DNA from: Rhytidiadelphus loreus
Taxonomy: Eukaryota; Streptophyta; Bryopsida; Hypnales; Hylocomiaceae
Assembly: GCA_947034895.1 (NCBI GenBank)
Contig: OX344764.1
Location: 56,339,348-56,403,347, forward strand
Direction: 5' to 3'
Length of the DNA stretch: 64,000 bases
The notes under the pieces were generated by a model. It saw only the letters and a list, made by a program, of their open reading frames with translations, had not been told where the DNA came from and ran no database searches. Shown one piece after another: positions 13,388-58,559 of the stretch; the stretch's first letter is position 1; every line of letters begins with the position of its first letter. The position numbers and the translations under genes were made by a program.

Positions 13388-13879
13388 TGTCGTACGCGCA
13401 GTCTAGGCGTAGGTATCTTTTAACACCACAAAAGCGTTAAGATGACATGAGTTATCGTCCTAGGGAATTCCAGATGTTGTCGTGATAGATAAGTATCCAG
13501 AACTACGGATCTACCCGGAAATGACAATCCGTTGTAGGATCCGGCACAACACAAACACTAAGTTCCGGAAATATTGTCTTCTGGAATCAAATCCGGATCC
13601 ACCTTGATCCGGATTTCTACTCTCACTATCCGTCACACCGGTTTTTGGTACCTCTGTTTTACCCTCAGAGGGTCCTCACTTGCTCTTTCCGAGGGGTGGG
13701 GAACATCACCACTCAAATAACACACGTATTACCTCCTAAACAACAAACAACTATCCGTCCTCAAAGTTCTCAGTCCGGTAAGGAGGAAAGATGGTCCCTC
13801 TCACAACATTCCGGGTGGCCACCCGGAAGGTAGGTTACGTAGAGGTACACCCTCACTCGCCCTTACTACAATGACACTC

Positions 13880-22469: not shown

Positions 22470-22478
22470 GTTTTATGG
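22470..22478. repeat. Left 9-bp TSD of MULE-2
   Basis: GTTTTATGG here matches GTTTTATGG at 38568-38576 exactly, 16.1 kb apart. Nine base pairs is the Mutator-superfamily TSD length. Confidence 0.9.
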
Positions 22479-22600
22479 GGGACGATGCTATTTTGCGTGC
22501 GGTGAGCGTAGAGCGTAGAGCGGTGAGCGTACTTTTGCGAGCCTAAGGCCCTCCCAAAATGTGCATATTTTATAAAAGTAAAAGTTTAAAATGAAATGTA
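22479..22600 (+). repeat. Left terminal inverted repeat of MULE-2
   Basis: Outer 25 bp are conserved with the right end. These are followed by GTGAGCGTAGAGCGTAGAGCGGTGAGCG, a heptamer-like run that could be an array of transposase sites. Confidence 0.85.
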
Positions 22601-24772
22601 AGCCAAAAAAAATGTAAAATAGAAAACTAAAGTACAATAGTAGGGCCCTATAGCCGTGTTTTTTGTTCGAATGTGAGAAATAATTGACCACGGTAATAGG
22701 CCACAGAAGTGGTTAAATGGTAAACTAAAGCAATTTATTGAATAAACCTATTAGTTATCCTATGGCCGTGGATACCCTATAGCCGTTGTTACTCGGAGGC
22801 CACGAGAGGAGTTCCTTAAAATAAAGTAAGGTACCCCTGGATATTATCACACCATTATTCCAAATAGAACCATTTCATATTCTTTAAAAAAATTGCAACC
22901 ATGACTCTATGAGGCAGTTTCCAACAGTTAAACAATAATTGGAAATTATTGTTGAATTATTCATGTACTGAAGAGAAAAGAAATGAACTCCGCAAATATG
23001 CATTCATAAAAATTAAATTCTGAATGCATTGTCCGATGATAGAGCAAACAGATTGCAATATAAGTTAGAGACTAAGTGACAATTCAAATCAGGGAGACTT
23101 CACATAAAGTTCCTCAAATTTTGGAGGGTTCGAGTTTCAATGCAGTGTATGTTAAATTATTCCACAGTATTTGAGAGCGTAGCCCAAGGCAGAAAGACTT
23201 TGAAGAATTGAGATATTTAAGGTGAACAATTCAATTCAATTGCACTTTGAATGGACACTAAGAAGAACCATTACATTGACATATACAGATGCTGAGCATT
23301 ACAAATGGAAACGTAAGATGGGGAAAAAGAATTCAAACAATAAATCCGGGTGATATTTAAATTATCAAAATGAAAAAGAGGAGGAACTGCCAGAAGATGC
23401 TGGTCTTGGTTCCATATCAACGTCTGCCTTGTCATCAATAAAAAGATAAAGGCGTCGAATAGAACATCGAGCACTAGTCGTGGAGGTCGAAGAAGACTCT
23501 GCCGCTTGCAAGTTGGCGACATCTGAGTCCCACGGCGCCATAAAATAGTCTTTGGGCGGAGATCGGAGTGCAGTCATCAGTTTGAACCAAAGGAGTTTGT
23601 GTTAGTGAATTGATCATGAAGTGAAGAATGAAAGATGATAGGATCAAGCAAGAGACGTACTTACTAAATCTGTTCTTCTTCGTGATATGCCGAATAGGGA
23701 CGTCCAGTGCAATCTATGATGGAGGCTCGGAAGCTTCAGGTTGCATTGGAACTAGAGCTTCGACCTGTTGGAGCTGGTGCAACTTAGCCTGGAAGATCAT
23801 AATGTCGTCTTCGAGGGCCGCAATGTGTCGTCCAATAACTTTGTAAGCTTGAATAGCATTACCTGAATTGGAAAGAAGGAATTTAGTATTATACATGACC
23901 CGGAAAATGCGAAATTCATCAGAAGACAGTAGAGTACTCACCAAGAGAAGCAAATGCATCGAGGATGATAGATCCCGGCTTCGTGAATGCCTCGATCAGC
24001 ATTTGAAGGAAGACTAGATCTTTCTCACAGGCGCCTCTCCACGGAACAGATCCATTCATGGATTGAGTGGCTACAGTTGTGAAATTGAATAACACATCAG
24101 ATTCAGCAACTCCCATTCCAAACTCCGCAAGTGATTGGCCGGCCGCTATTGTGAATTCGCTAGCATCCATAGCACGGTGAACGAAGAGTTGAATCCGGAA
24201 TCCTCTGCTTTGGAAATGGAGATAGCGATGAAACATTATGAGAACTTGCCAAAACTGAATTACAATCCAGTGAATTCAACAATGGAACTCAAATAGTAGA
24301 CAATAGTTACCTTATTTGATGCGTTGTAAAACGATGCAGAGGGAAGGTCATTAATTCCCCACCACTCTCGATGCAGAATGAAGTTGTATCCGTTTGCATA
24401 GGAGAGCACATCAGTCCGAATCTTTGGAACATCTGGGACAAACAACAAAATGGCACACGCACTGTCGGAATCCATAATAGCTTAGTACGGACCTTAATAG
24501 ACTAAGAAAAATTAAAATAGATCAAATTTGAAAAAAATTAGTTTAGGCATAGACTAGCGGAAACAAATAAATACTTAGAATTAGTTTAGACTTCGTTCCG
24601 GAACCAGTACGGAAGCATGACGGAACTTGACATCCGGGTGGACGGATTCAGAAGCCGGAACGCAGGCATTAAATTCAGTAGCTTGCGGCGGTAGACTAGG
24701 GATACGTTACGGCATTCCGTAGCCTGCGTTCCCGTTACAGTGAATGTTGGGCGCAGGAATTCTATATAAACT

Positions 24773-24780
24773 GAGTTCCT
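24773..24780 (+). promoter_or_regulatory. TATA box of the solo LTR
   Basis: TATATAAA lies 97 bp upstream of the ORF ATG at 24877 and about 310 bp into the LTR. This position fits LTR transcription starting near 24805 and reading through the ORF. Confidence 0.65.
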
Positions 24781-24876
24781 CCTCATTTCTCGCCCTCTTT
24801 CAGTTGCTCCGCATCTGGCTGATAGTGAGAGAAAGTGTGGTGAGTTAGGGTTACCGCGATAGGAGAGGTGAGACGG

Positions 24877-26772
24877 ATGGCAAGGGTTAATACTTGGTAT
24901 ACAGTACCGGCCCGGAAGATTAGTCCGGTATATCCGGAAGATCCGCTGCACTTGCGGCATTTAGAGGACGATTTGGTTGTATTAGGTTGTGCAGGTCTGC
25001 TGAAGAAACCCTGGAACATCCAGAGCGACCAGATACTCTGGGAGTTGGCGGCAGGTGCTCCGAACCAGTACGACCAGACCGTACGTGGGCATCCGGACCA
25101 GTGGACGGAGGAGCTGTGGGCGGAAGTGTACGGGTTTACCCAAACCGGAAGCGGATTCGCTGCCCGGACGGACCAGTACCACCAGCACAAGTTCGTGAAC
25201 CCACTACACACGAAGGAGGGCTACGCGATCAAGGACTGCCGGGACGAGAGGCACAGGCGACTACTGCGGTTCCTGCTTCCGATTCTGTACCCGGACAAGA
25301 GTTCCCGGGTTACGGTAACCATGGCCAACACGATCTTCGGGGCGTTTCAGGACCGGGTCGTGAACTGGGGCCGGATCGTGGCGAGCGTGGTGGGGCGCTG
25401 CACCGGAAACTTGGCGAAGAACAAGCCGAACCCGCTCAGCACGTACCTGCTCCACCTGTACCAGCACCGGGAACTCTTGACGGAAGACGAGGCGACGGAT
25501 TACGAGACCGGGCTCATCATGCTCCAATGCCACTGCTCTGACGACGAGGAGCAGGAAACGCAGGAGTCTGAAGATGAGGAGGAAGAAGCCAAGTCGGAAG
25601 TCAAGCCGGAGATCAAGGAAGAGAAGCCGGAACCGGAACCGAAGCAGAGGGAGAAGGAGGAACGGGAGCAGGCGTCGGGAAGCAAAAGACGGAAGTCGAC
25701 ACTTCCGGCTTCCAGAGGTAAACTCCCGGGTCCCTTTCTCATCCAGGATAAACAAGAGTGGGAAGGACCCCGCTTCTTCGAGTGCGGAGAAGACTGGATC
25801 CGGACCGCGAAGGATTACCACGACAGGCTCACGGAGATCGTACTCCGGTCCGCGGAAGTGGTGAAGTGCGAACCGGAGAGCCTGGTGGACGCGTTGAAGG
25901 CGTTACCGGCCGAGTCGGAATGGAACGAGATGAGGACGGAAATCCGGAACCTGAAGACGGAACGGGACGCGTTCAAGGGGAAGCTGATCTGGACGGAAGA
26001 AGAGCTGCACCAGTCTCAAGGGGCGACGCAAAAGGCGTACCAAGCGTTCCAGACCTTCCAGAAATGGATGGTCAGTCCGGCGGATCTCTACCACAAGGCG
26101 GCACTATATGACGAGATGCAGAAGACGTCCGCGGCCCTCACCAACACGAAGATAGTCCGGGTGATGGTGGAGATGTCCGGAAGGATGGAGGCATCGTTGA
26201 AGGAGTTCCGGTCCATGATGACGAACATGGATCCGAACAAGCCTCTCGACTTCGGGGGATTTCCGGAAGTTCCGGATGTCATCGCAACTCCGGCAACGCA
26301 ACCTCCCATCTCGCCCATCAAACGGACAGGTCAGTTTGGGTCACTGATAAACATCGTCACTCAAGGGGGGCACTCTTCCGGATTTCTGGGACAGGATATG
26401 CCGGTCCGGAGCAGTTTGGATGCCCGGATCGACCTTGTCCAGAATCCGGCACGGACGCATCCGGAGCAGTTCGAGGATATCGAACCTACTCCACCGATGC
26501 CCTTACCTACACCGGATCCCATCGAGATATCGGAGGAGGCGGAAGCGGAGGAACCGGAAGCAGAAGAAGCAGAAGTGGTGGAAGATCCGAAGTCGTTGGA
26601 GAAGGCGGACCGGTCTCTCGTCCATACGGACGAGACGGATTCTGACAGTCCTCCGGTCCGGAAGACGTCGATCATCACCCGAGCGTCCCTCCGTACACCC
26701 CAAGGCAAGACCAGCACCCGGGGGCAGTTAGGGTTTGACAGTAGTTCAAAGAAACAGCGGAAGGGAAAGTAG
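24877..26772 (+). CDS. LTR-encoded ORF, intact
   Basis: About 632 codons from ATG 24877 (MARVNTWYTVPARKISP) to TAG, with no internal stop. The alternative in-frame GTG at 24868 is less likely. The N-terminal ~200 residues form a folded helical domain with LHLRHLEDDLVVLGCAGLL, ILYPDKSSRVTVTMANTIFG and NPLSTYLLHLYQHRELL. Next comes an Asp/Glu/Lys linker (about 210-290), a coiled-coil half (NLKTERDAFKGKLIWTEEEL), and a Pro/Glu-rich tail ending KKQRKGK. I see no zinc knuckle, protease or RT motif, so it is not an ordinary gag-pol. It is encoded wholly inside the LTR downstream of a TATA box. Its homologue occupies the same place in the other LTR copy. Function unknown; the N-terminal part vaguely resembles plant 'putative transposon protein' domains. 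Confidence 0.8.
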   Translation: MARVNTWYTVPARKISPVYPEDPLHLRHLEDDLVVLGCAGLLKKPWNIQSDQILWELAAGAPNQYDQTVRGHPDQWTEELWAEVYGFTQTGSGFAARTDQYHQHKFVNPLHTKEGYAIKDCRDERHRRLLRFLLPILYPDKSSRVTVTMANTIFGAFQDRVVNWGRIVASVVGRCTGNLAKNKPNPLSTYLLHLYQHRELLTEDEATDYETGLIMLQCHCSDDEEQETQESEDEEEEAKSEVKPEIKEEKPEPEPKQREKEEREQASGSKRRKSTLPASRGKLPGPFLIQDKQEWEGPRFFECGEDWIRTAKDYHDRLTEIVLRSAEVVKCEPESLVDALKALPAESEWNEMRTEIRNLKTERDAFKGKLIWTEEELHQSQGATQKAYQAFQTFQKWMVSPADLYHKAALYDEMQKTSAALTNTKIVRVMVEMSGRMEASLKEFRSMMTNMDPNKPLDFGGFPEVPDVIATPATQPPISPIKRTGQFGSLINIVTQGGHSSGFLGQDMPVRSSLDARIDLVQNPARTHPEQFEDIEPTPPMPLPTPDPIEISEEAEAEEPEAEEAEVVEDPKSLEKADRSLVHTDETDSDSPPVRKTSIITRASLRTPQGKTSTRGQLGFDSSSKKQRKGK

Positions 26773-27874
26773 ATAGTTAGACTGATAGTGTTTTTAGTTA
26801 TCTTTTTGTTAGACTTAGAGTTCCGGGTCTTAGTCAGAACCCGGATTCCGGATTTTCAGGGGTAAGTTTCAGTTAACTTATCCACCCGGATTTTTAGGGC
26901 AGTTTAGGATGGTGTTTAGTGGCACTTTCCGCGGGTTTTACGGCATGTTGTTTTGCTTATAAAAGGAAGGGACCGCTTGTGGTCTTGGATTCCTTTTTCT
27001 TGCTATTCCTTATTTTGAGCAGTAAATATATGTGTGCATTTTTTATTGTCTTTTTACTCATTGCCTTAGTTTTCTTTGTGGGTCCTTGGTTTCCTGTTCT
27101 TTGGGAGGTTGAAGGTTGCTTGGGCGCTTGCTTGAAGGTTTTGGCTACAGAGTAGAGAGGTGGTAAGGAGGAGTCCGGATTCAGAGTTTCCTGGGTCTGT
27201 GAACTGTGTGTTGTCCAGGGAAGCAGTTCTAGCGTGTGTAGGAAGTGGTGCGGAGTCCGGCGTTGGTGGTGTGGGTGCGAGTCCGGAAGGCCAGGGAGGG
27301 TTCCGTGCGGAGATAAGCAACCGTCTGTGGAAAACCCCCGCTCACCCGGAAAGTTCCGTCCGTCTGCAAAACACAAGTTGGAGTGCTAGTACCGGACCCC
27401 GTCTCAGTTTCCGGGTAAGTCTTGTATTTGTCGTTGTAGCAAGGGGAGTCGGGTTGTATTCTGAGTGACCTGCTTCTGGAGAAATCCGAAGTTGTGAGGG
27501 TCAGCCAGTGTGTTCCTTGTTTGTGACGGAAAGATCTTTGGGTACGTGTCATTAGAAAGTTAGAGTTAGTGAAATACAAGGAGTGGTGTTGTCCTTACCC
27601 CTCCGGAAAAGTCAGTGAGGACCCTCTGAAGGTAAAACAGAGGTATCGAAACCGTGTGTTAAAACTACGGATCTGGTGTTTGTGATAATCCGGATCCGGT
27701 AGAGAGTCCGGATAGAGATAGAATCCGGTTGAGGAGTGAAAATTGAAGTAGTTACAATAAACCGGATTAGACGGAATTTAGAACACCCTCTGGGGTTCCC
27801 TGGGACGATATTCCGTGTCATCTTGCCACGTTTTTGTGATTAAGAGCGCTTACTACAGTATTACGTGTATGACA
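26773..27874 (+). other. 3' part of solo LTR, non-coding
   Basis: CCGGA-rich sequence with no believable gene. Short open frames at 26919-27579 have biased composition only. Presumably the 3' untranslated/R-U5 portion; it aligns with the end of the other LTR copy. Confidence 0.6.
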
Positions 27875-30039
27875 CGCACCATGAAGAAAATGTTCCGCAA
27901 ACTCGAACACACTTTCAGTGTGTTGCTCTGAGTACTCATTCCAAGCAGGGACATCTCCGGGGTTCACTGAAATGGACGGAACCCAAAGGCCATCTTTAAT
28001 ATCACCAAGAATCAAATCAAAGCCACTATGTGGACATGACTTATTCAAAGCCTTGGCACCGTCTTCTTTCTTAACCTGAAGATAAAGAAGATGGAAAAAA
28101 TTAGTTAAGAATGATCCCAGAAAAATGAACTAAAATTGGCATTTGCCTCACGCTGTACAGAAACGGAAAGATTGTAGCACCAACACGACGTGGACACCAA
28201 AGATGAAGAATCACTTGAAGCCAACATACGGCAGTGATTTTGAAGCGTGAAATGGCAAGGCATCAGAACAGCAACAAACCATAACTCAGCATCCTAATTT
28301 AGAGGAATACATAAGTGTAACAGGTGAATAAAAAGGCTAACCTTCAGAACGAATTTGTTAAGCATCTCGAGGCAAGAGTGCACCTCTGGAAGAGCCTCCA
28401 TAATCTGATAGAGGCTAGAATTTTGAACACACACCAGCGATTTCTGGGATGATCCAAGTGACGAAGCTGCTTTCTGAGAGGCCACTGTGATTTTCAACTT
28501 TTGCGTAGTAAACGACAAGGGGCTTGATTGCCCATGAGGAGTAAGAACATCCAGATTTCGAGAATCACGAGGAGTTGGTTGCGGAGCTCTAGGCTTCACC
28601 ACCTCCAACACTTCCATATCCACATCTGGCAACGGATTTGCAGACAGTCCAGAAGCCTTCTTGGCACTCTCTTGTGCGGCCACTGCCTCTGAGTCAGCCT
28701 TCTTCTTGGCACTCTCTTGTGCAGCCACAGCCTCTGAGTCAGCTTTCTTCTTCGCTTCTTCCTCGGCCTTTCTCTTTGAGCCCCTAGTCTTCTTTGCAGG
28801 TGCCTCCTTCCGAGGTGAATCATGGACCGTCTTCAACCCAACCAGATCCGGTTGCACCTGGTTCCTCAAGTCAATCTCAAAAGGAGGAGGGTTGTTTAGA
28901 GGGCAGTCAATGTACCACCCACAAACTTCCCAATGTTCCTTCTTCCACTTCTTGGCGATCTCCTCCGATATCATGCAATTCTCCGCTCGAGTGTCCAAGT
29001 AGCTTGGAAAGAACGATGGCGTCTTTGATGTGGCGTTCTGTGCATACAACACGAACTTGAAATATCGATAGAGGACCCTGGCCACAGCCTTATCCAAACC
29101 GACCTGATACTCAGGAGGATGATTCTTGTGAACTCCCTTGCCATCAAACTCATGGGCAAATGCGGTGTCCCAAAGCTGGATCCGATTCTGCTCCACATAA
29201 TCAGCGATGCTAGGAATAGGACTTTCACCAAATGGTTGGTAATTGATTGTGACGTCCAGCTCAGAGAGCGCCGCATCGAATAGTTCCTGCACAGCACTTG
29301 CCAACTATAACAGGGAATTAATGACAACTCTATCGAGTGCAGTATCAAATCCAAAAAGATGAAGTGAAGGTAGGATGAAGTACCTGAGCCCACCAGGTGG
29401 CTTTGTGAAGCCACTCCGGAAAAGCATGATCAGGAAACTTGGTTTTGGGGAACCTCATTGCTTCCCTAAGCAAGGCAAGCTTGTTCCATCGCTCCAGCCA
29501 TTTCACTTTCATCGCCGCGTCCATGACCGAGGTTGACAGATACCACAACTTTTCTTGCGACATCTCTGGATCGTCTTCCCGGTTCTCATAGTGAATCCGA
29601 ACTTGCTCCAGGAATTGCGATGTTTGCCTTGGATCAGCAATTGGTAGTTGTTTCTTCACATCAGATGACATGTCCTTCTTTACTTTATCCACAACCTTCC
29701 CAATGACGTCGTACAACTTTCCAGTAGTCCATTCACTTGACTTCTCCGGATATTTCTCCTTGAATTTCCTGGTCGCATGAGCTACTGCCTCACCCAGCTC
29801 TTGCTGCAAGACCAAAAAGAAGCCCAAATACGAAGTTAGCAGTGGAGAAATCACGGTCAAATGCCCGAGGACAACCACGAAAAAAAGAATGCAAAATATG
29901 GCGGTTGATAAAACTAGAGTGCCGACATCGGCAGCCAGTTCCACAGCAAGCATCGTCCTCCACTAACTCGTTTGGCTTGTCCACAACCAACGGAGGTTCC
30001 GATATCGGCACTCCATATTAAGACCCCGAAAGGAAACTA

Positions 30040-30405
30040 CTGTCGCCACTAAGGAGCAACTAAGTACCGACTAAGGAGCGACTCAAGCAGCAACTAAGTA
30101 GCGACTAAGCAATGACTAAGCAACGTCTAAGCAGCAACTAAGCAACGACTAGGCAGCGACTAAGAAATGACTAAGCAACGTCTAAGCAGCAACTAAGCAA
30201 CGACTAGGCAGCGAATAAGCAGTAACTAAGTAGCGACTAAGTAGCGACTAAGCAACAACTAAGTAGCGACTAAGTAGCGACTAAGCAGCGACTAAGCAAT
30301 GACTAAGCAACAACTAAGCAACAACTAAGCAGCGACTAAGGAGCGACTAAGCAGAGACTGAGCAACGTCTAAGCAACAACTAAGCAACGACTAAGCAGCA
30401 GCATC
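30040..30405. repeat. 11-bp minisatellite (AGCAACGACTA) in an intron of gene 2
   Basis: About 32 head-to-tail copies of an 11-bp unit such as AGCAACGACTA / AGCGACTAAGC. A block of five variants (CAACTAAG, CGACTAGG, CGACTAAG, ATGACTAAG, CGTCTAAG) repeats as a 55-bp higher-order unit between about 30115 and 30225. It lies between exons ending 30440 and starting 29803. Confidence 0.92.
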
Positions 30406-31580
30406 TTGCAAATCACTGAAGCATACAACATGAAAATACCTGATAAAGAACCCCAATTAAGCCGTCTAACGTCAAGGTGTACCAAGTTCGAGTCTTTGAT
30501 TTCTGCTTCTTCTTGGCGTCAGCTAGCTCTTCCTTGGAAACTAGATTCTCGTAATACGATAGGGGTTGGCCAGCAATACTTTGAAGTCGGTAGAGTTTAT
30601 GGACAAGATTCAACTTCACATGGCACGTCTGGTTTCTCCTGTTTCAACACACTGATGTTAGAACAGAATAACAATCACACTTCCCACATAAGCATTATCA
30701 AAACAGATCTATGACTTGTGGATTACCAGTTTACTTGGTGCAATGCGGTGAAAAGTGGCCCGGTCTGGCTGTTGACCTCCAAAACTATTGATTCAACCGC
30801 ATAATGCCATGCTGGATCGTCTCCATGGTCTCTGTTAATGATTGGCAGCCAGGCCGCGAGCCAATGGTTACCATCCCAAACGAAGAACATTTTACCCGAG
30901 AATTGCTTCCACGCGTCTTCCTTCTGGAGCTCCCTCTCAAAGTTCTCGTTTGCAGCAACCCATAACGGACTCCAGTTGGCTACCTCGGCGTCGGTCACAT
31001 CCTGTGTTTTTCCCTCGTTGTCCTGCAAGGCGACATAGAAGACCCCATGGCCATCCATGTATCCGGTACTAACGGAATGTGCGCCAAGTGCCATCACATC
31101 GTTTTTCAAGTATGGGCGCACAGCAGCTAGAGCTTTCATTCGGCAGAGCGGGATGTTGAGTTTGGACTTCTCCCTTGGCTTGAAACGAAGCTTGTCCAAC
31201 ACCACGTTCGTATTCACCGACTCCTGCACGACCATCTTGTCCATTTCCTTGCCAAGCTCCTCGGCTGTCATCTCCGTCGTTGCCTTATCAGCCTCATGAG
31301 CGTCTTGGGAGGTCTGCACATCCTCGTTGTCTACTTCCTCTGTAAATACAAACTTCGTTAGCAACGGGGCCGCAAAAAAAAATATCTTAATAAAACATGT
31401 TTAAAGATACTCACCCGACTCGAGAATGTCAGGCTGTGATGATGATTCCAGGCCAGACCTTAAAGGATTCCTTCCAGCATCTGTCATATCCTCCGATTGA
31501 CCTACACAACGACAAAATCTCAGTACAAATGACAAGTGTAACCAGTTGTCAGTGGTTCCAGAATGAGGTAGGACGCAAAC

Positions 31581-31836
31581 AGAATCCCTTTGGAGGGAGT
31601 GCCGCCATCGGCACCCCTTCCAAAGGGGTGCTGCTTGCGTCGACAGAATCCCTTTGGAGGGAGTGCCGCCATCGGCACCCCTTCCAAAGGGGTGCTGCTT
31701 GCGTCGACAGCACCCCCTTGGGAGGGCTGCCGATGGCGGCACTCCCTGCAACGGGGTGCTGCTCGCGCAATTGGTACCCCCTTGGAGGGAGTGCCGATGG
31801 TGGCACTCCCTCCAACGGGGGGCCAATTGCGAGATG
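31581..31836. repeat. Four 64-bp self-complementary tandem units in an intron of gene 2
   Basis: Units start at 31581, 31645, 31709 and 31773, an exact 64-bp period. Each contains an inverted repeat (CCCTTTGGAGGGAGTGCCG against CGGCACCCCTTCCAAAGGG). The array lies in the intron between exons ending 31861 and starting about 31507. Open frames in several registers are artefacts of the repeat. Confidence 0.9.
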
Positions 31837-32394
31837 ATAAGTAATCCATTGCAGGGATTTACCTCCTGTGGTCGTCGTCGTCTCCTCTTGATTCTTCTCG
31901 TTCCCTTGCCCCGTTTGCGCCTCCGTTGTAGTCATTGGGGTAAGATTCGGCACTTCCTCGTCCGCTTTTACGGCGCTTTCCGTGGTTTGTTTCCGCCTTG
32001 TAGCACCTGCTGGAATCCATAATGCAAATGTCAATGCGATCTTGGACGTCAGTGGTCAAGTGGACTAGATGCGCATACATTAACTTCTGTGCTTCACGTA
32101 TCAAAGGCGATTCAAGTTGACAGGAGAGATTGAGAAAACTAAACTGTCGCGCCTCCGAAGCCTTTAAGCAACCCCGTAACCGATCATTGAGTCCTTAACC
32201 CCGAACGCCATTATAGACGCTACCTTAGAGCTCAGACACTGTCGGAACCCCTAAACCCTAAATTTATAAATCCCGTGACCCTTCCGTGAATCCTAATGCC
32301 AGTCCGTAAATACAAACCCAATCTTGGAGGTCAAACTCTGTTGCGACTGTGAAACCATGGCGGAAAAAGAAATGCCTGCCTTGTATTCTGTACC

Positions 32395-32580
32395 TCCCAA
32401 AATAATGCAAATCCCGTCGCGGATGCAATGCTCTCACCGGAACCCAGAACCCTGCCGCGTAATATAATTCCCGTCGTGACTGCAATGCACCCGCAGAAAA
32501 CCAAAATCCAGCCGTGTAATAAAACTCCCGTCGCGGCAGCAATACACTCGGGGGAATCCAAAACCCTCCCACTCCACTTT
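32395..32580. repeat. Three ~58-bp tandem units in an intron of gene 2
   Basis: CCCGTCG-NG-NNTGCAAT-type cores recur at about 32412, 32471 and 32528 with CCGCGTAATA/CCGTGTAATA companions. Open frames of 60-100 codons on both strands follow the repeat. Confidence 0.75.
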
Positions 32581-33248
32581 AAACTCAATTTTGGGTTCTT
32601 CGGAGAACACTGAAAACAAACTTCCTCTCGCAGGTCACGGTTTTGGGTTCTTTAATGAAACAGATGTCTTTGTCTCTAGACAGTTGCTTACAGGGCAATC
32701 GGACCGCGGAATTCGAGATAAAAAATACGGTGTCCCTCGGTGGACAAAAAAAAAGTCTCGTAGTCTAACTCATTACTCTACACACGACGCAATGAAATTG
32801 TATAACACATCTTCTGCGTGACTCAAAAAGAAAAGAGGTGCCCACAAGACGCAAGCTGGGCCAATACGTAAACATGATATGCTGGAGTAATACCCTTTAC
32901 CCAATGCAGAAGGTAATGCGCACTACACCTTCATGAAATCCAACAATGATGATAGGAGTCTAACCAAAAATTAGAGCATTTCGCATTACCTCTCTCTGGA
33001 GTGGTTTCTCTACTCGATCCTTCTGCATGATCACCAGCATCCTCATCAGGTGTACTTCCGCTTTCGCTGCGGGCTGGGGGGGAACTCTCTGGAAGTCCTT
33101 CCCCCATCGTCTCCTCTGCAATTCTGGTAAGGCTAACTGATGGAAGACCCTGAATCGTGCTAACTGATGGTTCTACACCAGCAAATTCTAGGACCCTTGC
33201 AGTCTCTCCAACATCGGCTATCCTAGCATTTGATCGCAACTCCCTCAT

Positions 33249-34137
33249 AATCCGAGACTTCTTCAAGCGCTTCGGGTTTGTAAAATACAAAGCTTGTCAT
33301 TTTCTTCTCTTTGGCATTCTAAAGGATGTAGGAATTGATTACCATTTCCACTCCTCGCAATACTAATTACCCTACTCCATTTTATGTATGATAACTGCTA
33401 GTCACGTTTTATTTCAAGTGCGGGCGGCAGAAAGACCTAGTAACTTAGTCCGACGGGGTGTTAAACCCGTCGGACATGCCAATAAACACGAATGATTGCA
33501 AGTTTAAAATTCAAGTTACAATTACTCATGGCATCATTCCATTCTTGCGGGCCTCTTTTGAATAATGGATGGACGGTCTCTAGAATTCGTAGGGCTGCCA
33601 AGGCTCATTTAAAATGAAGCTGAAAATCATTGAATATTCTGACACATCTATTGACGGTCAACCGCCGGCAGTACAATAAACGGGATGAAATGTAGTTATG
33701 GGCCTACAGGCTCCAAATTACATTTGGAATACTTCAATCTGTTCAAAGAGTGTTTCTCTATTCCATAATAAACATAGGGACTGCGCATACAACCACGCCT
33801 ACTTTTAACATCTAGTCTAATTAAATGATTGTAAGTTGTGCATTTAAATATCATCCTAGTTGCAACTACCTACGGATCGTATTGTGTTCACTATAATTGG
33901 GAACAGATACTAATTGAATTGAACGTGTACCATCAGGCTTGGTTCAGTTCTACATTGCCTTCATGAACGACTACATGGCGGCTTGTCTGGAGTTATGACA
34001 TGGGCAGATTGTATTGACGTAGTCTTAGAACCCTACATTATTTATGCAAGGAATTCAGTACCTACATTTAACTTGTTCCGCATTTTGCACCTCGGTTACA
34101 GGTTTGTTGTATTGCGTCCTCTTGAGATTAGGTTGCC
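33249..34137. promoter_or_regulatory. Divergent intergenic region of MULE-2
   Basis: About 0.9 kb separates the ATG of gene 2 (-, 33248) and the transposase ATG (+, 34138). No ORF of interest. It contains the perfect hairpin listed next and should hold both promoters. Confidence 0.6.
33448..33475. promoter_or_regulatory. Perfect 10-bp hairpin GTCCGACGGG/CCCGTCGGAC
   Basis: GTCCGACGGG (33448-33457) and CCCGTCGGAC (33466-33475) are separated by an 8-nt loop. It is GC-rich in an AT-rich region, 0.2 kb upstream of gene 2 and 0.66 kb upstream of the transposase. Confidence 0.7.
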
Positions 34138-37100
34138 ATGGCTACCTCGGTCGTTGCCGTCCCTAATGCGGTTCTAATTCGAGGAGATGGAGCAACAGTG
34201 CCTATTTCGTTCGTAGTGGGGGAGGATGGCTTCGCTAGAGTTATTGGGTCTCGCTTGGCTTCTAGGTTTCAGATTATGGAAGGTACTTTGCATTTGGATC
34301 TGGATGTTATGAACCCAGTCTCGAGGCAGGTCTCTCACACTGTAGCGTAGTTGTCATGTGACTCTCTTGGCGGTGAGGTGTGGTCTTTGTCACCCGGAAA
34401 CTATCGCGTGTATGGAATGAAGGACAATGTAGTTGATTCTACAGCTAGACGTGGGATGACATTGGATGTCACCCCAATGCTTCGGAACGTCAAATTAGAA
34501 CATGTCGACAGTCCTGTCCTTGTTCTTAGTGATGATTCTGATAGTGATTGCATCCTTCCCATGCCTGATTTCACTGCTCCCGACCTTGTAGGCCCCCCGG
34601 TTGAGCGTGCAGCTTCCGTTCCTGAGTCATGTCCTGCCTGTCGTTCAACTCCATCCATTTGTAAACCTCCCTTGCCAGCTGCTGAGAGTATCATCCACTG
34701 CCTACGCCAATTGAATACCAACAAGGGCGCTAGGTCAATTCTTAGCAAGTTAGATTACAATTCAATTACGATAGAGAAGGTAGAATGTCTACCCCCAGAT
34801 TTTAATGGCAATATCATTTTTGAGCTCCCTCCAATGGATAAGTATCCGCTATCCACTAAGGCCGGTCAGCTGCATGGCATGGATAAAAAGGATGACGGAC
34901 ACGCTTGGACTCGAACGGCTACTACGTATATCCAATCCTTATCACAATTTTCGTTCCGATTGTCTAATTGCTTGGGACATCTACGATGCACAAATAGTGC
35001 TTGCGAATATGTAAGTCGGCCCAATCGTTTGTCTTCGTCAAATGAAACTGAGTGGGATGGTCTTGCCTCCTCTGTCTTCGTTCCCGGATCGGATCCCCCC
35101 TCTAATTCTACTGTCGTGTGTGCCCTCTGCCTTGTGAAGCCTACTTGCCTAGATAGCTGCCCTGCAAAGATATATTATGTTTACGGCCCAAGTCACATGA
35201 CCCGTGCATGTATTCATCTGGGATTCCATTCACATCCTGTGAGACAAGGAAATTATCGAGAGTCAGATTCCAAACTCCGTAGTCTGATTGGCGAACATGT
35301 AGAAAGGACTCCCTCGGCGACAAACTCTGCCATTGTCCTGGAGGCGACTAAGGAGTACCTAGGCGAAATTCTTTTGTGTCCGGATGGTGTGCCTCAAAAG
35401 ACTCTAGCAATCGAGGAACTAATCCCTGTCCTAGACAAATTTAAGCAAATGTCATCTCCGAGTATTCGAAACCAAGTCACCACTTTCCGATACCTCCGTC
35501 GTTTTGGAGTCCTCGATAGCATCACTAAACTGAGAGGGTCTTGCAATTGGGCCTTCATCCAAGAGAACAGGTTTCCGGGACAAGGAGCGGACTCTGACAA
35601 GGTCTTCATTTTCAAAATGGCGGAAGTGGGCGCCGGAAGTGGGGTCGACTTGGTTAGGCGTATGCAACCTGGAGGTGACTTGGAAAACGCATGGATGATG
35701 TTCGACCATGTCAAACGGGTGAAGTTATGGACCACAATGGCTTGTCACGTGTATGACTCTATATATTGCCGAGTCATGACTATTGCTGTTTGCGATATGC
35801 AATCTGAAGATGTGGAAGCTCAGCAAGTGTTCTGGAAGAATCTGAATGTTGTGTCTTCTAAACATGATATTACTAATCCAAATTTTAAAGGGTTCATGGC
35901 GGACAGTGCACAAGCAAACTGGAATGCTGTTCGTATTGTGTACGGCTCTGGTGACTCAACAATCCCCATGGTCAACCGCGAGAGGACTTGCCTTTTTCAT
36001 TGGACCCAATCACTGGAGAAACACACTAAGGCAGATATCAGAGCAGACCTACAGGATCAACATCGACGCCTCTGTAAATAGTATAAGAACTCCGCATCAT
36101 TAGAAGAGGCTCAAAGTAGGTATTTGGCGGTCCGTGCATGGTGGTTATCATCTGGAGCTTCAACTGATGAAGGACTTCCAAGACTCGACTTATGGCTAGC
36201 ATTCTAGCATTTTAGATACCGGCAATGGGGAGGGTTCATGGAATTGGTAAGTGCAAGCTTAAGTTGGTTCTTCTCTTTGTTTTGCCCACCCTACAATCGT
36301 CATGCCGATATCGGCACTACTCCATACATATCGGCACTACTACCAAAGACAAAGTTCCTGCATCTCTTCCTCTCAATTCACCTAATGTTTCATATTCTTG
36401 TTCTTCGTTTCAACACTCATCATGTAGGATTGCGTGCAGGACCTTTCACCAACCGAATTGGCCGAAATGCCATCATGTAATTTGGCGGAGTCGGTCCACA
36501 ACAAGTGGTTGCAACAGTTAGGCAAAAGAGGGAATGATCTGTACGTTGCTTCCGTCGATGACATGGTCAGAGCATTCATGCAAGTTGTTGCTTACTACCA
36601 ATTCCTCAAGGGTGGAAAGCCAGGTACTGGGCCATCGAAAGAAGAACTCCGTCTTCGTACAGCCCAACGCACTGCTCAACGCTCCGGAAATTCAAAGGTT
36701 CTTCATGCCGCCCTCGCCAATATGCCTAATGCTGAGGTCTTCTGCACACGTGATCCGCATCTGGAGGGGGAGGAAGTTTTTGTTTCTTTGAAGCGAAAGG
36801 CAGATCTCCCTGTGGGATCAGAATTCGACTCGCACCGCCCTGACAAGATCAGTGTTTCCCGCCCAAGGCGCAAGGCCCAACGACTTGATCCGGACATTGT
36901 TGATGTCACTGCTGAGGATCCACCATCAGAATTCGAACTTGGCCTAGGAGAAGGCACTGCTCCCTTACTGAAATCACCATTGACTCACTCTCCGGCAATG
37001 CATGTCAAATCAGTTCAGGAGACTATTTGCGATGAGCAGCAATGGCATATTGCGAGACTCCCGAGGACGTCTGCAAAGGCTTGCTTTGCTATGTAGGTGA

Positions 37101-37888
37101 AGACCAAAAAGAAATGTGTGGCCAGGATTGTGCAGGACAATCGAAGTACAACTGCCCCTACTTACACCGGATTGATGGACAATTACAAGAAAGTTAGATT
37201 GGAGAAAATGCAGTTCTTCTTCTGCAATGATGACATCAATCGCTGTGTCAATGGAACACGTCGGAAATGGGTAGTTTCTAAACCTATCGTCCCTGATGTT
37301 TGGCCTGTTAAAATGGGCACAAACTTGACAAGGAAAGAGATTCTAAGTCTCGAAAACGCCGGATTCCACCTTATGGAGCATGTCGAGCTATCCCCTCGAA
37401 AGCTGTTTGGAGAAGCCATTTCTGTAAACTTGGGCGACTATCCTCCTTCTCCAAATCCTTCAGATCACCCCACCAAGCGGTACGGGAAGAACATTCGAAG
37501 GAACCCTGCCGCTCCAACAACGAAGCACCACAACAACTGCGCTTCTGCTTTGTCCATTATCGGGGAGATCTGCAGTATTCTAATGGTTCCTCCTCCAGCT
37601 CTCGGCTGCATTGTTACATTGGAGTCTAGAAATATTTCTAAGGTATCTAAGTATTTGCTAACGATTGGTCAATTCCCAAGCTGCGACTGCCCAGCGTTCA
37701 AAGACATGTCACAAAAGTCACTGGGCAAGCGAGGAGCATGGACGTATTGTAAGCACCTGTATTACATATTTGTCATTGTTTGTGGGTTAGATCCCGAGGT
37801 CAATATCTTTACGCACGCTCCAAGTTTTAGCTGGATTGAGATAAAACAGGTTCTACAAATTCTGCTACTGAAACACTACGGTGCATAG
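34138..37888 (+). pseudogene. MULE transposase with GCM/WRKY-like and SWIM zinc fingers
   Basis: ATG in good context (GCCATGG). Exons 34138-36246 and about 36428-37888, GT-AG, phase 0. After a disordered N-terminus comes a Cys/His cluster resembling WRKY-GCM1 fingers (CLGHLRCTNSACEY ... CPAKIYYVY ... HLGFHSHPV). Then a MULE DDE-like region: VYDSIYCRVMTIAVCDMQ, FMADSAQANWNAVRIVYG and the C-x2-H of RTCLFHWTQSLEKH. The C-terminus has a SWIM finger, CDCPAF ... YCKHLYYI. This order is typical of Mutator-like transposases. Four in-frame TAGs interrupt it (34348, 36079, 36205, 37094), all readable as former CAG codons. Its place 0.7 kb inside the right terminus of MULE-2 makes it that element's own transposase. 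Confidence 0.85.
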
Positions 37889-38444
37889 CGAGCATGAATA
37901 GTCCTATTACTGCAATGTGATCCTCTCCACTATTTTAAAGAGAAGGTGGTGAGACTTGAAGGGCCACCGCCAGAGTTTGTGCACGCAGCTTTTGTTGTTT
38001 GACTCTCTAAACCCATTTCTGCTGTCGGGACAGACTTCTTTTGCATTCCAAGTGTTTTGGAATCACCCTAAACCCCTGAACCACCAAAAATATGTTCCTC
38101 TACCACCATAGTAGATGCTCTCTCTCACTCCTCCGCGTTCATTACCCATCACAAACTCTCCTTAACTTTTGCAATCCCCTAAACAAGACGTCGTCACTCT
38201 CACTCGGCTTTCCTTCCACTCTTCTTCTCTCTTCAATTCTGAACCACAGATATTATATCTTCTCCCCTCTTCTAACCCCTATCACCACGGTTATAGGACC
38301 CTGTGACCGATACTTGCGACTTCCGTCTTCTTGATGGTACGTGTACTGACCAAAAAAACTCCTCTACACCATATTCCTACAACCTACTCCACGGTCATAG
38401 GTCCATCATTATTATAAATTTCAGGTGTATCCACCCTTAAAATG

Positions 38445-38567
38445 TTCTATAACTTTTACTTTATCGCACACATTCCAAAAATTATCTAACTTCTAGCGCT
38501 CTACGCTCGCAAATCTACGCTCTACGCTCTACGCTCACATCTCTACGCACGCAAAATAGCAATCCCC
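38445..38567 (-). repeat. Right terminal inverted repeat of MULE-2
   Basis: The reverse complement begins GGGGATTGCTATTTTGCGTG and continues into GTGAGCGTAGAGCGTAGAGCG, matching the left end. GTTTTATGG (38568-38576) follows. The stretch 37889-38444 between transposase and this repeat shows no gene. Confidence 0.88.
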
Positions 38568-38576
38568 GTTTTATGG

Positions 38577-38746
38577 GTAATCTATGGATAAAAGGCTATT
38601 TATGACCAAATGCTATACTGGTACGTGACATACCTATTTTGGTTCTACACTCTTTTTTGGGCTTTTTGTAGTACTTTATGCCTTAATTTGTAATAAACTA
38701 AAAAAAAGAAAACAATGAGTCCCAAGTGATGAATTTGGGGCTCAGA
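38577..38746. mobile_element. Right remnant of the long LTR-like element
   Basis: Continues the element broken by MULE-2 at 22479 and ends CTCAGA immediately before GTGAG (38747-38751). Confidence 0.65.
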
Positions 38747-40536: not shown

Positions 40537-43500
40537 TTACATTGTGAAGGTAGAATCGCTTTCCGCTTCATCTGCATTGGGGTTGGTGTCTTCATGTGGC
40601 CCACTACTGTCACTAGCTCCTGAGACCTCGTTTTCATCATCCTCTCTGCTTGTAGGTTGAAGGATCACCTCACGTTCCACCTCAGAGTTCAAATTTCGCA
40701 CTTGCGTTTCTAAACCACCAACAACTTCGGCTAGCACTAATCGCTTTGTCGGCCTCGATGCATCAGTGGTTCCATTGATAATAGGGCCTATCGGTCGCTC
40801 AAGCACCTGCTGTCCAACATGTTGACGCTCTGCTCTCGCTGCTGCGCTTGATGGCCAAGGATTACGAGTGGAATTTCGTTCTCCAATGACAAATGGATGG
40901 ATCGCATGGTTTTGACGCTTGGCGTTCCGTGTCAGTCTGTCTTGCGTCTTGCGGGTTTGTTTATTTCCTGATTTGGAGTGTTCGCGCGATCGCCTGGATG
41001 ATTCTCCAGGGCCTGACATCAACGAGGCCGGAGTAGGTTGTGGAGCTGAGCCATGCACTCCTTCATCAACGATTTGTCGTAGATCATTATGTGTCGGCGA
41101 CCTTATTAGAGGAGTTGGTACTATCCTCGATGTTGTGGCAATGTCTACACTTGTAGGGCGATTGGACCCACGGGTACGGGTCTCGTTGAATACCACTTGC
41201 AATGGCGCATCTGAATCGTACACCCTAGTTTCTGTTGCAGTGTTGTTGGACGGTGCTAAACTTGGACGAACTGCAGGTACCTCTTCAATATGCGACACCT
41301 CTTCTTGCCTTTCACCCTGTACATTAACTCGTGCACCACTTCGGAGGTTCATTGGCATACTAGGCGGCAGACATGTGGCAATTGGAGACCTTACAAGCTC
41401 CACTTCATCTGCCACTGGAATATCTGCACCGTCATTGTTGTCATCAGGAGTTCTTTCCCTCGTTGGGTCTGCATTGATTACCGGAAATGCATCCCAAGCC
41501 GACACATGAGGGGCTTCGTCTCTACGGTGGTGCGACGCCTCTGGAGAGCTCAATCCATCATCATCACCCACGAAAGTGTTGTGGTATCGTCCTCGTGGAG
41601 GACTACCTACACGGGGCACCATACCAGCCCACCTATTTCCACGGAGGCGTTCTTCTACTACCACACGTCTCTGTTCTTCTCTCAAATCTCTAAACCTAAC
41701 TTCATCTTCGTCCCTCGAAGAATATGGTTCCTCATTCTCTTCATCTGTATCTCCATCTACAAGGTACTTTTCGTAGAATAGTGCTGGATTGTGTCCTTGT
41801 TTTTCACGTTCCAATTTGCTGTTGGTGTAGATATACACCAACATCTCAGCCTTCTTTGTGGCTACGCGATTACGCACTTTATCGTGTACAAACGAATACA
41901 TGCTCCAGTTTCTTTCACAAGATGATGCTGAGCATGTCAGAGACAAAACTCTCCTTGCTATTTTTGGAAGAGCGTTCCCACCCACACGATTCCACCATTG
42001 ATGAGGCAACAAGTTACATCGAGTAACATCTGGAGCCTCTTGTAATGGATCAAAGGGACCCGACTTCTCTTCAAATTCCGTCAACTCAGCAATTGCTTCA
42101 TCTTCATCCACATTCAATGGTCCGCTCAATTTTCTGATGACTCGATTCAATGCCCGCTTTGCCTCTCCATTGTTATGAAGCTCTTCCACATCTGTCAAAT
42201 ACGGGTTCAACAATGCCCCTGCATAATGGAGGTCCGTGCGCATCAACTTCCAACGAGCATCAAATTGTTTTAGGAACTTCGTCGCGGTCTGCTCATCAAG
42301 AAAGAACGGAGCCTCCTTTAAAGTGCACACGTGCTGACGAAGGCTACTCATTATTATCCAAGCTTTCGGCATCGCCGGTATTTTGCCATCGAACTGGCGC
42401 AGAGCAAGAATCACTGGAAGAACCATGTGCTGGAAATTACCGCATTCCACCCAAAACACTTCCGAAACTATGTCCTCTCGCGCTTTACGGGCCCGTTCTC
42501 TTGTAATGAGTCTGTTTGTTCTGCTGACCAAACTATTCTCAAATGGCATATACGTCTTGTCCCCCACCACGAATTGAAGCGCTTGTTTGCACTCTACCAA
42601 ACGGTCTATCATGAGAAAATGCACTGCGAAGCGTGTGGCCACGGGAAGTCTCAATGACTTCTTCGGCGAGTACTTACGGAAAAGACCCAAAGTCAAGTGG
42701 TATTTCTTTATAAACTTCACAATTGCCCTGGCCTTATCCACTAGATCTTTGATCTTTTTTTCCTTTCCCCAGTCTTCCAAAAGTAAGTCCAATATATGTG
42801 CGGCACATCCTTGCGTATACATGTGGGGATACCTTGCTTGCAACTCGCGCATTGACCCTGTCATTACGGAAGCATTGTCTGTACACAATTAGACAATATT
42901 TCCTGGTCCCACCTGCTCTATGTAGGTAGCCATTGTATTCACCGTATACGCCATGTCTTTCCTCTCTCCTGTGGTGTCAACCGATCCTAGGAAGACATCA
43001 CCCGCAGGGCAAACGAGCATCATATTCAACAAGGGACGGTGATTCGTATCTGACCATCCATCTGAACAAATAGTGGCTCCATATTGGGTAATAGAACTCT
43101 TTGTTCGACTACTGACCATTTTCGTAACAGACTCCTTCTTCACATCAAGTAGTTTAGTGCGCACCGCATTGTACGATGGCGGGGAATATGGAAATCCACA
43201 TGTCGAAGTTGCTTTCACAGCATTCACAAAGGCTAGGTGCCGCACCACATTGAATGCAATGTTAGCCTCATAAAAGAAAGAAGCCCATAGTCTGTCCAAG
43301 TTTTGTCTTTCATTGACCCGGAATGATTCATCCATGCTTTGTTGACGAGAAATCGAGGTTGAGCGCATCCTTCTCACCGTCACAGGAATAGAATTCGTTG
43401 AATCTGGATTACGAGGCGGTGCATTAGGTGCTTCTGTCCTGTCGCTTGGGTCCACAGACCCTTCCACTGATGCATCCACAGTATACCCTACAACGGACTC

Positions 43501-43824
43501 AGCAACAACATCAACCTCAAGATCTACTCCATGCATCTCCTCCAAACTCATTTCTTTTGGTACAATCCCTTCACAGTTCCTGAATAATTCGAGGACTACG
43601 GATGGAATACGTTTACAACGTTCCACTGTTGATGTACGGGGGTAACCAAAGTGACCAAATGCCCGCTTCCGCACGAAAACTTTGTTCCAACCATAAAAAA
43701 TACAAGTCCTCGTATTTGCGGAACGAGCGGGGTTTGTTTCAATAACCAACCAGGGATCCCACTCCTTTGTGGCTCTTCGAGTATCATTTATGTTCGTCCT
43801 CCTCCCCGCTCCTCGGTTTGCCAT
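40537..43824 (-). pseudogene. hAT-superfamily transposase, one in-frame TAA
   Basis: Frame from ATG 43824 to a stop at 40537, interrupted only by TAA at 42889-42891 (GPGNIV*LCTDNAS, probably former CAA). The N-terminus has a degenerate BED-type finger (CIFYGWNKVF...GHFGYPRT...CKRIPSVV; the second Cys looks replaced by Tyr). A DUF659-type core follows: GATICSDGWSDTNHRPLLNM, then CTDNASVM and CAAHILDLLLEDW. The C-terminal dimerisation region is HQWWNRVGGNALPKIARRVL ... SCERNWSMYSFVHDKVRNR, at residues about 295-357 of the second half. About 400 further residues are disordered and Arg/Ser/Glu-rich, an unusually long tail. Terminal inverted repeats and the 8-bp TSD were not located. Confidence 0.88.
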
Positions 43825-44045
43825 ATTGTTTATCTGATATGCGTTATTCCAAACCGAAACGTATATGTACCCAAGTGCTTCGGAAAAAAAAATTATGACA
43901 AAGCCACCGCTTCGAGTAGTTTTCTAACCACTCAAAGCAAGGTTGTTGCCCTCTGAAGAATATAACATTGCATGAAGCCTCTTGAGAAGATCCAAGCCAT
44001 ATGTTCATCAACAGAGCAATGGAAATCCAATGTTGTTCCTCTACA

Positions 44046-47545: not shown

Positions 47546-48529
47546 AGCAGACTCAGGAAATGCACAGGGAGAATTGACCCCCTCATTGCCCCCGTCAACT
47601 TAGATTTGAAAAAAAAGCCCCCTATATTCTGCCAATTTTTGGGTAATTCTTGCATCTCCTAGAAGTAATTTGGGGCCTCTGATTGCAAATATGATTTCAG
47701 AATTCCCAAAAAAATTAAGCAGTGCAAATAATAAATTCTAGGGCAAGCCCTGGATGGGCAATGAGGGAGTCAATTCACCCTGGCCCTCACAAATGGCTCA
47801 TCTCAAGACTGATCTCCCTTTTTCATGTATTTACTTCAATGAAAATATTTTTAGATCATTTTTCAGACAAAGAAAAATAAAAGAGGAATCTAACACAAGT
47901 GATTTCATTTTTTTTAAGTATTTTTTAATTAATTGTAAATTTCCAAAGGACTTGTGTCATAGGTCCCTACTTATGCCCCTAGGTCTCCCGTAAAACATTC
48001 ACTTGCAACTTCTAAAGAAAAATGGGGAAGTAAAGAGAATGAATTGGCTTTTACAATTGATAATTTTTTTTTCTCGAATCATTTAATGATTATGGAGGTC
48101 AATTTATGAACTACAGTTTGTCCATTTCAAAGCCACTTATAGAGTCCATTTCTAATGCCCACTCCATTTTAGAGCCTTCTACCTTATATTTACTTTCACA
48201 TCCTCACAAATGGAGAAAGGAAGTACAATTTATGTATCAATGAATAGGTGGTAGTAAAATCGTGGGCCACCGCAATTAAAAATATTCCCAACATGTAATG
48301 AGTTTAATAGCTTTTTCAAGTGATATTAAGTTTTGGAAGAGAACATTTTAGTGTGCCAATATAATTTGTAGTTCTTCATTTCAACTCCAATCCCAAATTT
48401 ATTTTTATAAGCAATACACTCAACCATGAAAAAGTAAATTTGGTAGGTTATCATCTCACAACTCTTATCCAATATTGCACCTTCAGGAAACGTGCATACT
48501 AATACACAAGCTAATTAAACATTCCTATG
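47546..48529. other. Non-coding inverted-repeat arm
   Basis: AT-rich; pairs with 58.1-58.56 kb. 47817-48160 matches the reverse complement of 58230-58560 closely (for example GACTTGTGTCATAGGTCCCT). No gene. Confidence 0.65.
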
Positions 48530-49960
48530 GTTAGGTTCTTGTTTCATAAAACTTGCTTCAATGGAAATAACTATAAGTCCATGCTCTTTTCATAAAGGAA
48601 AAATACAGTTGGAAAGGCATAGGCACTTAGGGGTTCATTAGTAATGCATTCTAATTGTTAAGCTAAACTTATCTTTTGACTCTAAATAGATTATGCAAAC
48701 ACCCCTCTTCTAAAATCAAATTTCATTCGCAAGTACATCTTCGTCATTGTCCATAATGACGAACAATTCTAATTAAATAATGATTTAGCACAAGTGAATT
48801 CTAAAATACTGTATATCATTACGAATTAGTTACTTTAAAGTTTCAAAAACTCCCGTAAAGACTTGAGTATAGGCTAGGTGTCGTGCTTCGAAGGTTTGAC
48901 CAAAGACCTCCTCGACCTCTGCAGTGAGATGTTTTCTATCGCACTGCGGAGGTCGAAGAGGTCCTTGACCGAACCCATAAGCCCAAACCAGAACCTCCTT
49001 TATCATGTACACCGGGTTGGGAATCGAACCGTAGACCTCCCAGACTCCACTTGAATTCGAAGAAGTCGACCCTTGTCTGAGAATCCCTTCCACTACTTCA
49101 CCTTCTCGTTGGTCACATCGGGAATCACCTTCGATGCACCACTCCTTGTCCATCCCATCTTTATTCATTTTTTTCTTTGATTCTACGGGGCTTCAAAATA
49201 CCATCAACCGCCCAACAAAAATTAGTCTCCCCGTTTTGGACCCGAAGTCGCCCCACCCGAAGTCGCCCTACCCGAGGTCGCCCAAGTCCCGAAAAAGAGG
49301 AAATTTCAAATGCGTGAGTTTTTCCCTCCTCTCTGGACCCGCGGTCACCCCACCCGAAGTCGCCCTACCCGAAGTCGCCCCAACCGTGGTCGCCCCAGCA
49401 CCGCTGAAGGAAGTCCCCAATTTCCCCCTTCTCTGGACCCGCGGTCACCCCACCCGCGGTCGCCCCTACATCAGTATTTGAAAGAGTCACTTACAGAAGA
49501 CTGCTGTCATGGTAGGTGAGATCATAGAATATTTTCTACATAGCTTACAATTATAACACATGATCATTTTATTAAATGGTCCCTAACAAGGCTTCAATAT
49601 CCTCAAGCCCTACAGTCATAAATTCCAAACCCTACAAAGCCCTCGCAAACTAGAACCCATACCCAAACCTAAACCCTTGAATGCCCAACCCATTTTAGGA
49701 TGTTTTATGAATGTGCTTTAACATCAACAAGAAGCCAACATTTTGAATTATAGAATCAATTTCTTTGTACTTCTTCATTTTTCCTCCAATGCCAAAAAAC
49801 TTTATTTGTGCAAATTATCAAATTGTTGTGGAGGGGGATAATACACTTGAAGTAAAAAATGTACATTTCTCTTATTCTCTTGTTATAATCTTACAACACT
49901 TACGCAATTTTGCACTCAAAATTAACGTGCACACTAACAAGCAAGTTCTTTAAACATTCA
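48530..49960 (-). repeat. ~1.43-kb repeat unit 1 (tRNA-like B box, hairpin, GGGCGAC array)
   Basis: Starts with GGTTAGGTTC...ACTTGCTTCAATGG. It carries a TTCGTCATT/AATGACGAA hairpin (48740-48763) and a long hairpin (48902-48965). A B-box match GGTTCGATTCCC lies on the - strand at 49019-49030. A GAAGTCGCCC-type array is at 49230-49465, then an AT-rich tail. The next copy follows head-to-tail. Flanking the B box, ATCGAACC with CCTCCCAGACTCCACTTG resembles a tRNA T-arm and long variable arm, suggesting a tRNA-derived, SINE-like core. Confidence 0.75.
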
Positions 49961-51540: not shown

Positions 51541-51680
51541 ACGGTTAGATTAAAAAATAAATAGGAAACTTGCTTCAATCCCAACTACTATAAGTCCATG
51601 CTTTTTTTTCATAGGAAAAATACAAGAGGGAAAGGCTTAGGCACATAGGGCTTAATAATTAATGCACTCTTATTGTAATG

Positions 51681-58555: not shown

Positions 58556-58559
58556 GAAA

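Follow-up and report, generated by a model that had tools for sequence, protein, structure and literature searches.

What is a gene for a ParB-like protein doing inside a plant transposon, and does it belong to that transposon? The question is raised by a 64,000-nucleotide stretch of the genome of the moss Rhytidiadelphus loreus (assembly GCA_947034895.1, contig OX344764.1, positions 56,339,348 to 56,403,347; hereafter the window), in which an element spanning positions 22480-38567 carries two divergent genes between matching ends. The plus-strand gene encodes the transposase, and the minus-strand gene, here called gene 2, encodes a product with ParB-like and methyltransferase-like domains. 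Copies of this family, designated F1, and its relatives were sought across the same 407-Mb genome, where all listed places fall on five large contigs (C1 to C5). The observation of an element with two divergent genes is confirmed, and the comparison supports gene 2 as a conserved accessory component of a Mutator-like group. Family-specific palindromes lie just 5' of the ParB exon in most of the families read, and by a narrow preference we favour a reading in which the ParB-like protein binds the palindromes of its own element and keeps that element expressed or mobile.

The element and its two genes

The outer 15 nt of the element, GCTATTTTGCGTGCG, occur exactly twice in the window, in inverted orientation at 22487-22501 and 38546-38560, and none of 100 shuffles contained two matches at two or fewer mismatches. 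The terminal inverted repeats (left, 22480-22552, plus strand, with GAGCG-type subterminal repeats; right, 38495-38567, minus strand) were defined by their matching arms of 67 nt at 79% identity, so that the matching termini described in the initial annotation stand. The boundaries were set at 22480 and 38567 because a 10-bp duplication, GTTTTATGGG, sits at 22470-22479 and 38568-38577, as judged from the sequence and the comparison of copies. This target-site duplication had been given as an exact 9-bp repeat; it is 10 bp here and in nine of ten other F1 copies, which have 10-12 identical flanking bases, fitting a 10-bp duplication once the terminal G/C is assigned. No duplication was found in the tenth copy, whose alignment ended before the right end. 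Target duplications of 8-11 bp are given for Mutator-like elements (MULEs), together with other extra genes, in the portions of PMC6446971 at hand, and both the inverted repeats and a duplication within this range are Mutator-like features.

The transposase is encoded by two plus-strand exons at 34138-36246 and 36428-37888, the first of which is interrupted by stops in the window copy. Read by eye, it has a C..H after a conserved D and a SWIM-like CxC..CxH near the end of exon 2; no Pfam model scored above the cut-off at E up to 1. Relatives at 49-66% identity (P0042-P0063) come from ENA, JGI and other sources, and one of them, P0042, is uninterrupted over 1278 aa. The transposase search gave 22 proteins and did not show a link by locus tag between transposase and ParB genes in Riccia.

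Gene 2 proved to be, as first described, a multi-exon gene transcribed away from the transposase; its nine exons have canonical splice sites and form a single open frame. By the splice model, exon 1 (31863-32020, start codon uncertain) and exon 2 (31415-31501) precede exon 3 (30727-31339), which encodes the ParB-like domain. Exon 4 (30440-30638) is followed by exons 5 (29384-29803) and 6 (28342-29304), which encode a helical region, in exon 6 together with a charged linker. Exon 7 is present in two parts (27880-28075, with an altered motif IV, GDIKDG; and 24311-24456), exon 8 (23942-24254) encodes motif X/I of the permuted methyltransferase-like domain, and exon 9 (23714-23862) ends the gene at a C-terminus that is not settled. 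Intron 4 also holds a tandem array of units of about 11 bp (CTTAGTCGCTG type, 30049-30429), for which the alignments with other copies are multiple and shifted.

The two parts of exon 7 are separated by a 3.4-kb insert (24463-27871) that is found in none of ten other F1 copies; an earlier interpretation as an intron was dropped once the copies were compared. The insert has a gag-like open reading frame (ORF) of 642 aa and no visible long terminal repeats, and is bordered on both sides by a 7-8 bp repeat of exon sequence. A similar ORF was seen by eye on the minus strand at 14.7-16.7 kb. The window copy is thus damaged, with the insert in gene 2, stops in the transposase frame, and DGNHW in place of DGNHR in the ParB-like domain.

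DGNHR, which we take to be the GxxR box of ParB, is present in nine of the ten other F1 copies (DGNHQ in one), in the distant families F4 and F5, and in 18 of the 24 Riccia rows that span it. Fold comparison gave a modest match to ParB and a match to beta-class methyltransferases, and fold searches with the helical region between the two domains returned no convincing partner. In the methyltransferase-like part, motif IV precedes a recognisable motif I, which is the permuted beta-class order shared with CcrM, MboIIA and M1.HpyAVI. Unlike these enzymes, the gene 2 proteins do not keep the catalytic (D/N/S)PP(Y/F/W): DPPY/DPPW is replaced in every member read, by GDIKDG in all ten F1 copies, by DVPEG, DIPEN and DMPEG in three other members, and by DMPSG, DMPTG, DIPTG or DLPTG in Riccia. 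The protein had been presented as putatively DNA-binding or DNA-modifying; a ParB-like and a permuted methyltransferase-like domain are recognisable, and methylation is doubtful because of these replacements. Two protein searches, in each of which about 8000 candidates sharing words with the query were scored, found relatives of gene 2 only in the liverwort Riccia sorocarpa, one protein in the first search and 41 in the second. Three of these (P0009, P0036, P0041) bear the UniRef label Trimethylguanosine synthase, probably merely through the methyltransferase fold.

Conservation across copies and families

Searched with 322 bp of the left end, the genome gave 31 near-full matches, one of them the window copy; at nine more places the match is confined to the terminal repeat. 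From the ten best matches after the window, 20 kb each was taken. All ten copies, 12.6-13.1 kb long, have both genes in the divergent order of the window element, to which their long segments are for the most part about 98% identical. The initial annotation had proposed to ask whether most full-length copies have both genes in divergent order with 9-bp duplications; the gene order holds in all ten, and the duplications measure 10 bp in nine. The coding length of gene 2 is 3250 nt in every copy; it is stop-free in five, a sixth has a single stop at the last codon, and four appear intact with their splice sites. In the transposase, exon 1 is fully open in three copies and both exons in one; one copy has a 156-bp deletion and another a 214-bp insertion. 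Both genes are fully open in none of the ten. F1 is a young family, and selection on gene 2 within it is weak (events that change an amino acid or make a stop number 116, where mutation types predict 129.5, z -2.1; pN/pS 0.43 by a simpler count); none is seen for its methyltransferase part (z 0.05); the transposase exons, compared in six copies, gave z -0.3 and -1.2.

Two distant left ends lack an intact gene 2. The first belongs to a derivative that has lost nearly the whole ParB exon and most of the transposase by internal deletion; the second has the common terminal sequence and a 70% identical piece of transposase in inverse orientation, and nothing else. Non-autonomous derivatives would be expected to look like this. 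Of the nine places where the match is confined to the terminal repeat, four sit 2.9-5.1 kb from transposases 67-74% identical, and therefore relatives probably share ends.

The divergent layout extends to F4 and F5, in which gene 2 is 26-45% identical and the transposase 45-54% identical in its main segments, with one N-terminal segment at 27%. The description of ends and duplications rests with F1, as terminal inverted repeats were not found in F4 and only the left end was seen in F5. Because the layout is kept in ten of ten copies and in two distant families, gene 2 is better described as a conserved component than as a random capture, and on this point the first proposal is supported.

The gene 2 family looks very large. 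The ParB-exon query gave 1331 first-look candidates, of which the best 150 were scored (100 to 34% identity, spread over all five large contigs); an F5 ParB query gave 1382, again with the best 150 scored, and the transposase query 1533, with the best 76 scored. A first comparison of 67 listed ParB and 44 listed transposase places found 23 divergent neighbours and no other arrangement. When all 300 scored ParB rows were merged to 240 places and set against the 76 transposase places with a limit of 15 kb, there were 24 divergent neighbours and one other pair, on the same strand and 13 kb apart. A limit of this count is that 216 of the 240 listed ParB places and 52 of the 76 listed transposases, including most of a group at 57-60% identity, have no listed divergent partner. 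The matches listed understate the pairs, however, because a divergent partner was present on direct reading in F4 (C1:55655169), in F5 (C4:7787818), and at C2:59278631 and C3:24303111.

Palindromes beside the ParB exon, and neighbouring features

In seven of the eight families read, the sequence immediately 5' of the ParB exon contains a palindrome particular to that family, in most cases repeated in tandem. In the window, a tandem array of the GGAGTGCCGccatCGGCACTCC type occupies 31574-31820 in intron 1 of gene 2, with a unit number that varies between copies; two further palindromes of this type lie in intron 4 (29921-30009) and one in the transposase intron (36304-36315). Three F1 copies have 5, 6 and 11 such sites within two mismatches, where re-drawn sequences reach a maximum of 1-2; these controls were first-order Markov re-draws, not exact dinucleotide shuffles. 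The motif differs in the other families, listed here with their ParB identity. F2 (77%) has one long near-perfect palindrome centred on GCCGATGTCGGC, seen by eye only; for L037, the script found no long perfect palindrome (longest arm 5), and one read by eye has a central mismatch. F3 (58%) has eight GCCGTTAACGGC sites within one mismatch (re-draw maximum 1), F4 (44%) six CCTCGTTGACGAGG-type sites within two mismatches (maximum 0), and F5 (41%) twelve GTCGGCGCCGAG-type sites (maximum 3). In L040, which is 80% identical to F5, there are eight TCGGCGCCGA sites at up to one mismatch (maximum 2), and in L041, at 75% to F5, five CTCGGCGCCGAG sites at up to two (maximum 1). The five 16-nt sites of L041 are dispersed, and they are not a simple tandem duplication, because their flanks are only 22-44% identical. 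The eighth family, L039, has no palindrome in the 1.2 kb read 5' of its ParB exon.

The 15-nt F4 site occurs 53 + 54 = 107 times genome-wide, against no occurrence of a reversed control. Among 100 listed sites, 95 lie 970-1934 bp 5' of F4-type ParB exons, all on the same strand, and the listed sites cover 28 of the 30 ParB exons typed as F4-type; of the two uncovered, one is outside the listed part and the other is nearer F5 (81%). The GCCGTTAACGGC sequence occurs 915 times against 9 for its reversed control, and its 50 listed sites all lie more than 15 kb from any ParB or transposase place on the lists. It is often clustered at a spacing of about 63 bp, for example at C1:7972593-7973046. Exact palindromes of any sequence showed no clear excess in the F1 copy C1b (27 against 24 expected) and some excess in the window copy (44/29), F4 (59/34) and F5 (49/29), and no arm recurred more often than in the re-drawn sequences; the counts of family motifs at one or two mismatches are, unlike these, well above the re-draws.

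A second, related left end was matched by pattern at 7341-7400 (plus strand). It is followed, as had been noticed, by a minus-strand homologue of gene 2, gene 1 (10888-13402; tblastn, E down to 2e-12), whose ParB part is missing; other repeats start at that point. A pattern search of the window gave no inverted second end, and the sole transposase match there belongs to the element at 22480-38567. With one end, a truncated gene and no transposase, the 7341 element was rejected as an independent complete copy. Just left of its terminus, and outside it, ends a third multi-exon gene (3076-7262, plus strand) with an INGQHS motif, DGQHR/ParB-like by eye; it is split by a 221-bp foldback at 3518-3736 and unrelated to gene 2 by BLAST. 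Elsewhere in the window, hAT-like transposase ORFs were seen by eye at 40537-43923 (minus strand), and 47786-51676 and 54399-58562 hold long duplications, both inverted and direct, most of them 75-92% identical.

Possible role of the accessory protein

Bacterial ParB binds palindromic parS sites that are clustered near parB. The layout described here resembles that of a transposon with a gene for a site-specific DNA-binding protein and, next to that gene, the sites for the protein. It is like ParB/parS, Noc and KorB in its modest ParB fold match and in its clustered palindromes near the gene, and unlike bacterial ParB in being a eukaryotic transposon gene joined to a methyltransferase-like domain. 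It also resembles VANC and its targets in the VANDAL elements of Arabidopsis, where, in the portions of PMC5735166 at hand, the product of an extra transposon gene acts on family-specific motifs that are often tandem repeats in accessory-gene introns and that co-evolve with it. The difference is that VANC has DUF1985/DUF287 and a short non-palindromic motif, YAGTATTAY (PMC5735166, same portions); neither domain was listed in Pfam scans, which covered gene 2 in part and some of its Riccia homologues.

In the reading that we narrowly favour, the accessory gene, transcribed away from the transposase and conserved across the group, would supply a ParB-like protein that binds the palindromes of its own family as a dimer, as ParB does on parS, and then loads onto the element or spreads along it. 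With its altered catalytic motif, the methyltransferase-like domain is more likely a SAM- or DNA-binding scaffold than an active enzyme. The outcome might be a nucleoprotein state, specific to the element, in which the transposon stays expressed or mobile, as VANDAL elements do through VANC, possibly by anti-silencing. A stronger version is more tentative and, to our minds, has perhaps one chance in three: a eukaryotic self-recognition system of the parS/ParB kind, in which each family has matching palindromic loading sites next to its own gene for the ParB-like protein, and protein and site co-diversify such that only an element's own copies are recognised and shielded from silencing or mobilised.

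Several other explanations have to be weighed. The accessory protein could be an active methyltransferase writing 4mC or 6mA on the palindromes. The permuted beta-class order with its recognisable motif I fits this, palindromes would suit a mark on two strands, and a published proposal to this effect exists for an algal protein that is similar: in the portions of PMC12477816 at hand, the Ectocarpus element Sola1-1_Ec32 has, on the strand opposite its transposase, an accessory gene of 1104 aa with a ParB-like DNA-binding domain and a methyltransferase domain of the 4mC/6mA type, and its product is suggested to act on its own transposon by binding and modifying it. We nevertheless judge it unlikely here, as the DPPY/DPPW motif is replaced in F1, the three other members and Riccia alike.

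It is similarly unlikely that the protein is a helper of transposition, mudrB-like or an architectural factor of the transpososome, acting at the ends while the internal palindromes are incidental. The divergent layout does recall mudrA/mudrB of MuDR, which is likewise a Mutator element with two genes and terminal inverted repeats. Unlike gene 2, mudrB is not known to have a ParB or methyltransferase domain. Extra ORFs occur in other MULEs, according to the portions of PMC6446971 at hand, and GAGCG-type subterminal repeats are common to F1, F5 and the 7341 end. However, those three ends look alike while the palindromes differ, and a role at the ends leaves unexplained why family-specific palindromes stand at a similar place in seven families.

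Rather doubtful, too, is the view that the arrays are RNA hairpins or mere intron minisatellites with no link to the ParB-like protein. They do sit in intron or leader sequence, are mostly tandem and vary in unit number in F1; L039 has no palindrome in the stretch read, and GCCGTTAACGGC also clusters away from listed ParB places. Against this stand the L041 palindromes in their unrelated flanks, the similar position in seven families, and a motif that tracks ParB relatedness. Lastly, that a single element picked up a host gene by chance is very improbable, and this reading was rejected: MULEs often capture genes, but this layout is kept in ten copies and in distant families.

The initial annotation regarded such a transposon as new. 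Accessory genes of this kind precede it in algae, as similar ParB and methyltransferase proteins are also reported for transposons of red and green algae (PMC12477816, in the portions at hand). The likeness to Sola1, an accessory gene with both domain types opposite the transposase, is one of description, and Sola1 belongs to a brown alga, whereas the present group is Mutator-like, has 10-bp duplications and resides in a plant. Palindromic site arrays and an altered catalytic motif are features here that those portions do not mention for the Ectocarpus protein. The word methyltransferase is absent from the main text of PMC6446971, and in the open-licence literature we saw no ParB and methyltransferase genes for Mutator-like elements or land plants, nor palindromic sites for them. 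Algae thus provide a partial precedent for the kind; what seems new is the palindromic sites together with the altered catalytic motif.

Algal transposons with prokaryote-type proteins for binding or marking DNA are known, and the portions of PMC12477816 at hand do not state the sequence recognised; in R. loreus, candidate sites are at hand. Since the family-specific palindromes lie beside the gene and vary with the protein, specificity, spreading and an effect on silencing become directly testable. If the favoured reading is true, these elements would provide a second, structurally unrelated example, beside VANC, of how a transposon might know its own DNA.
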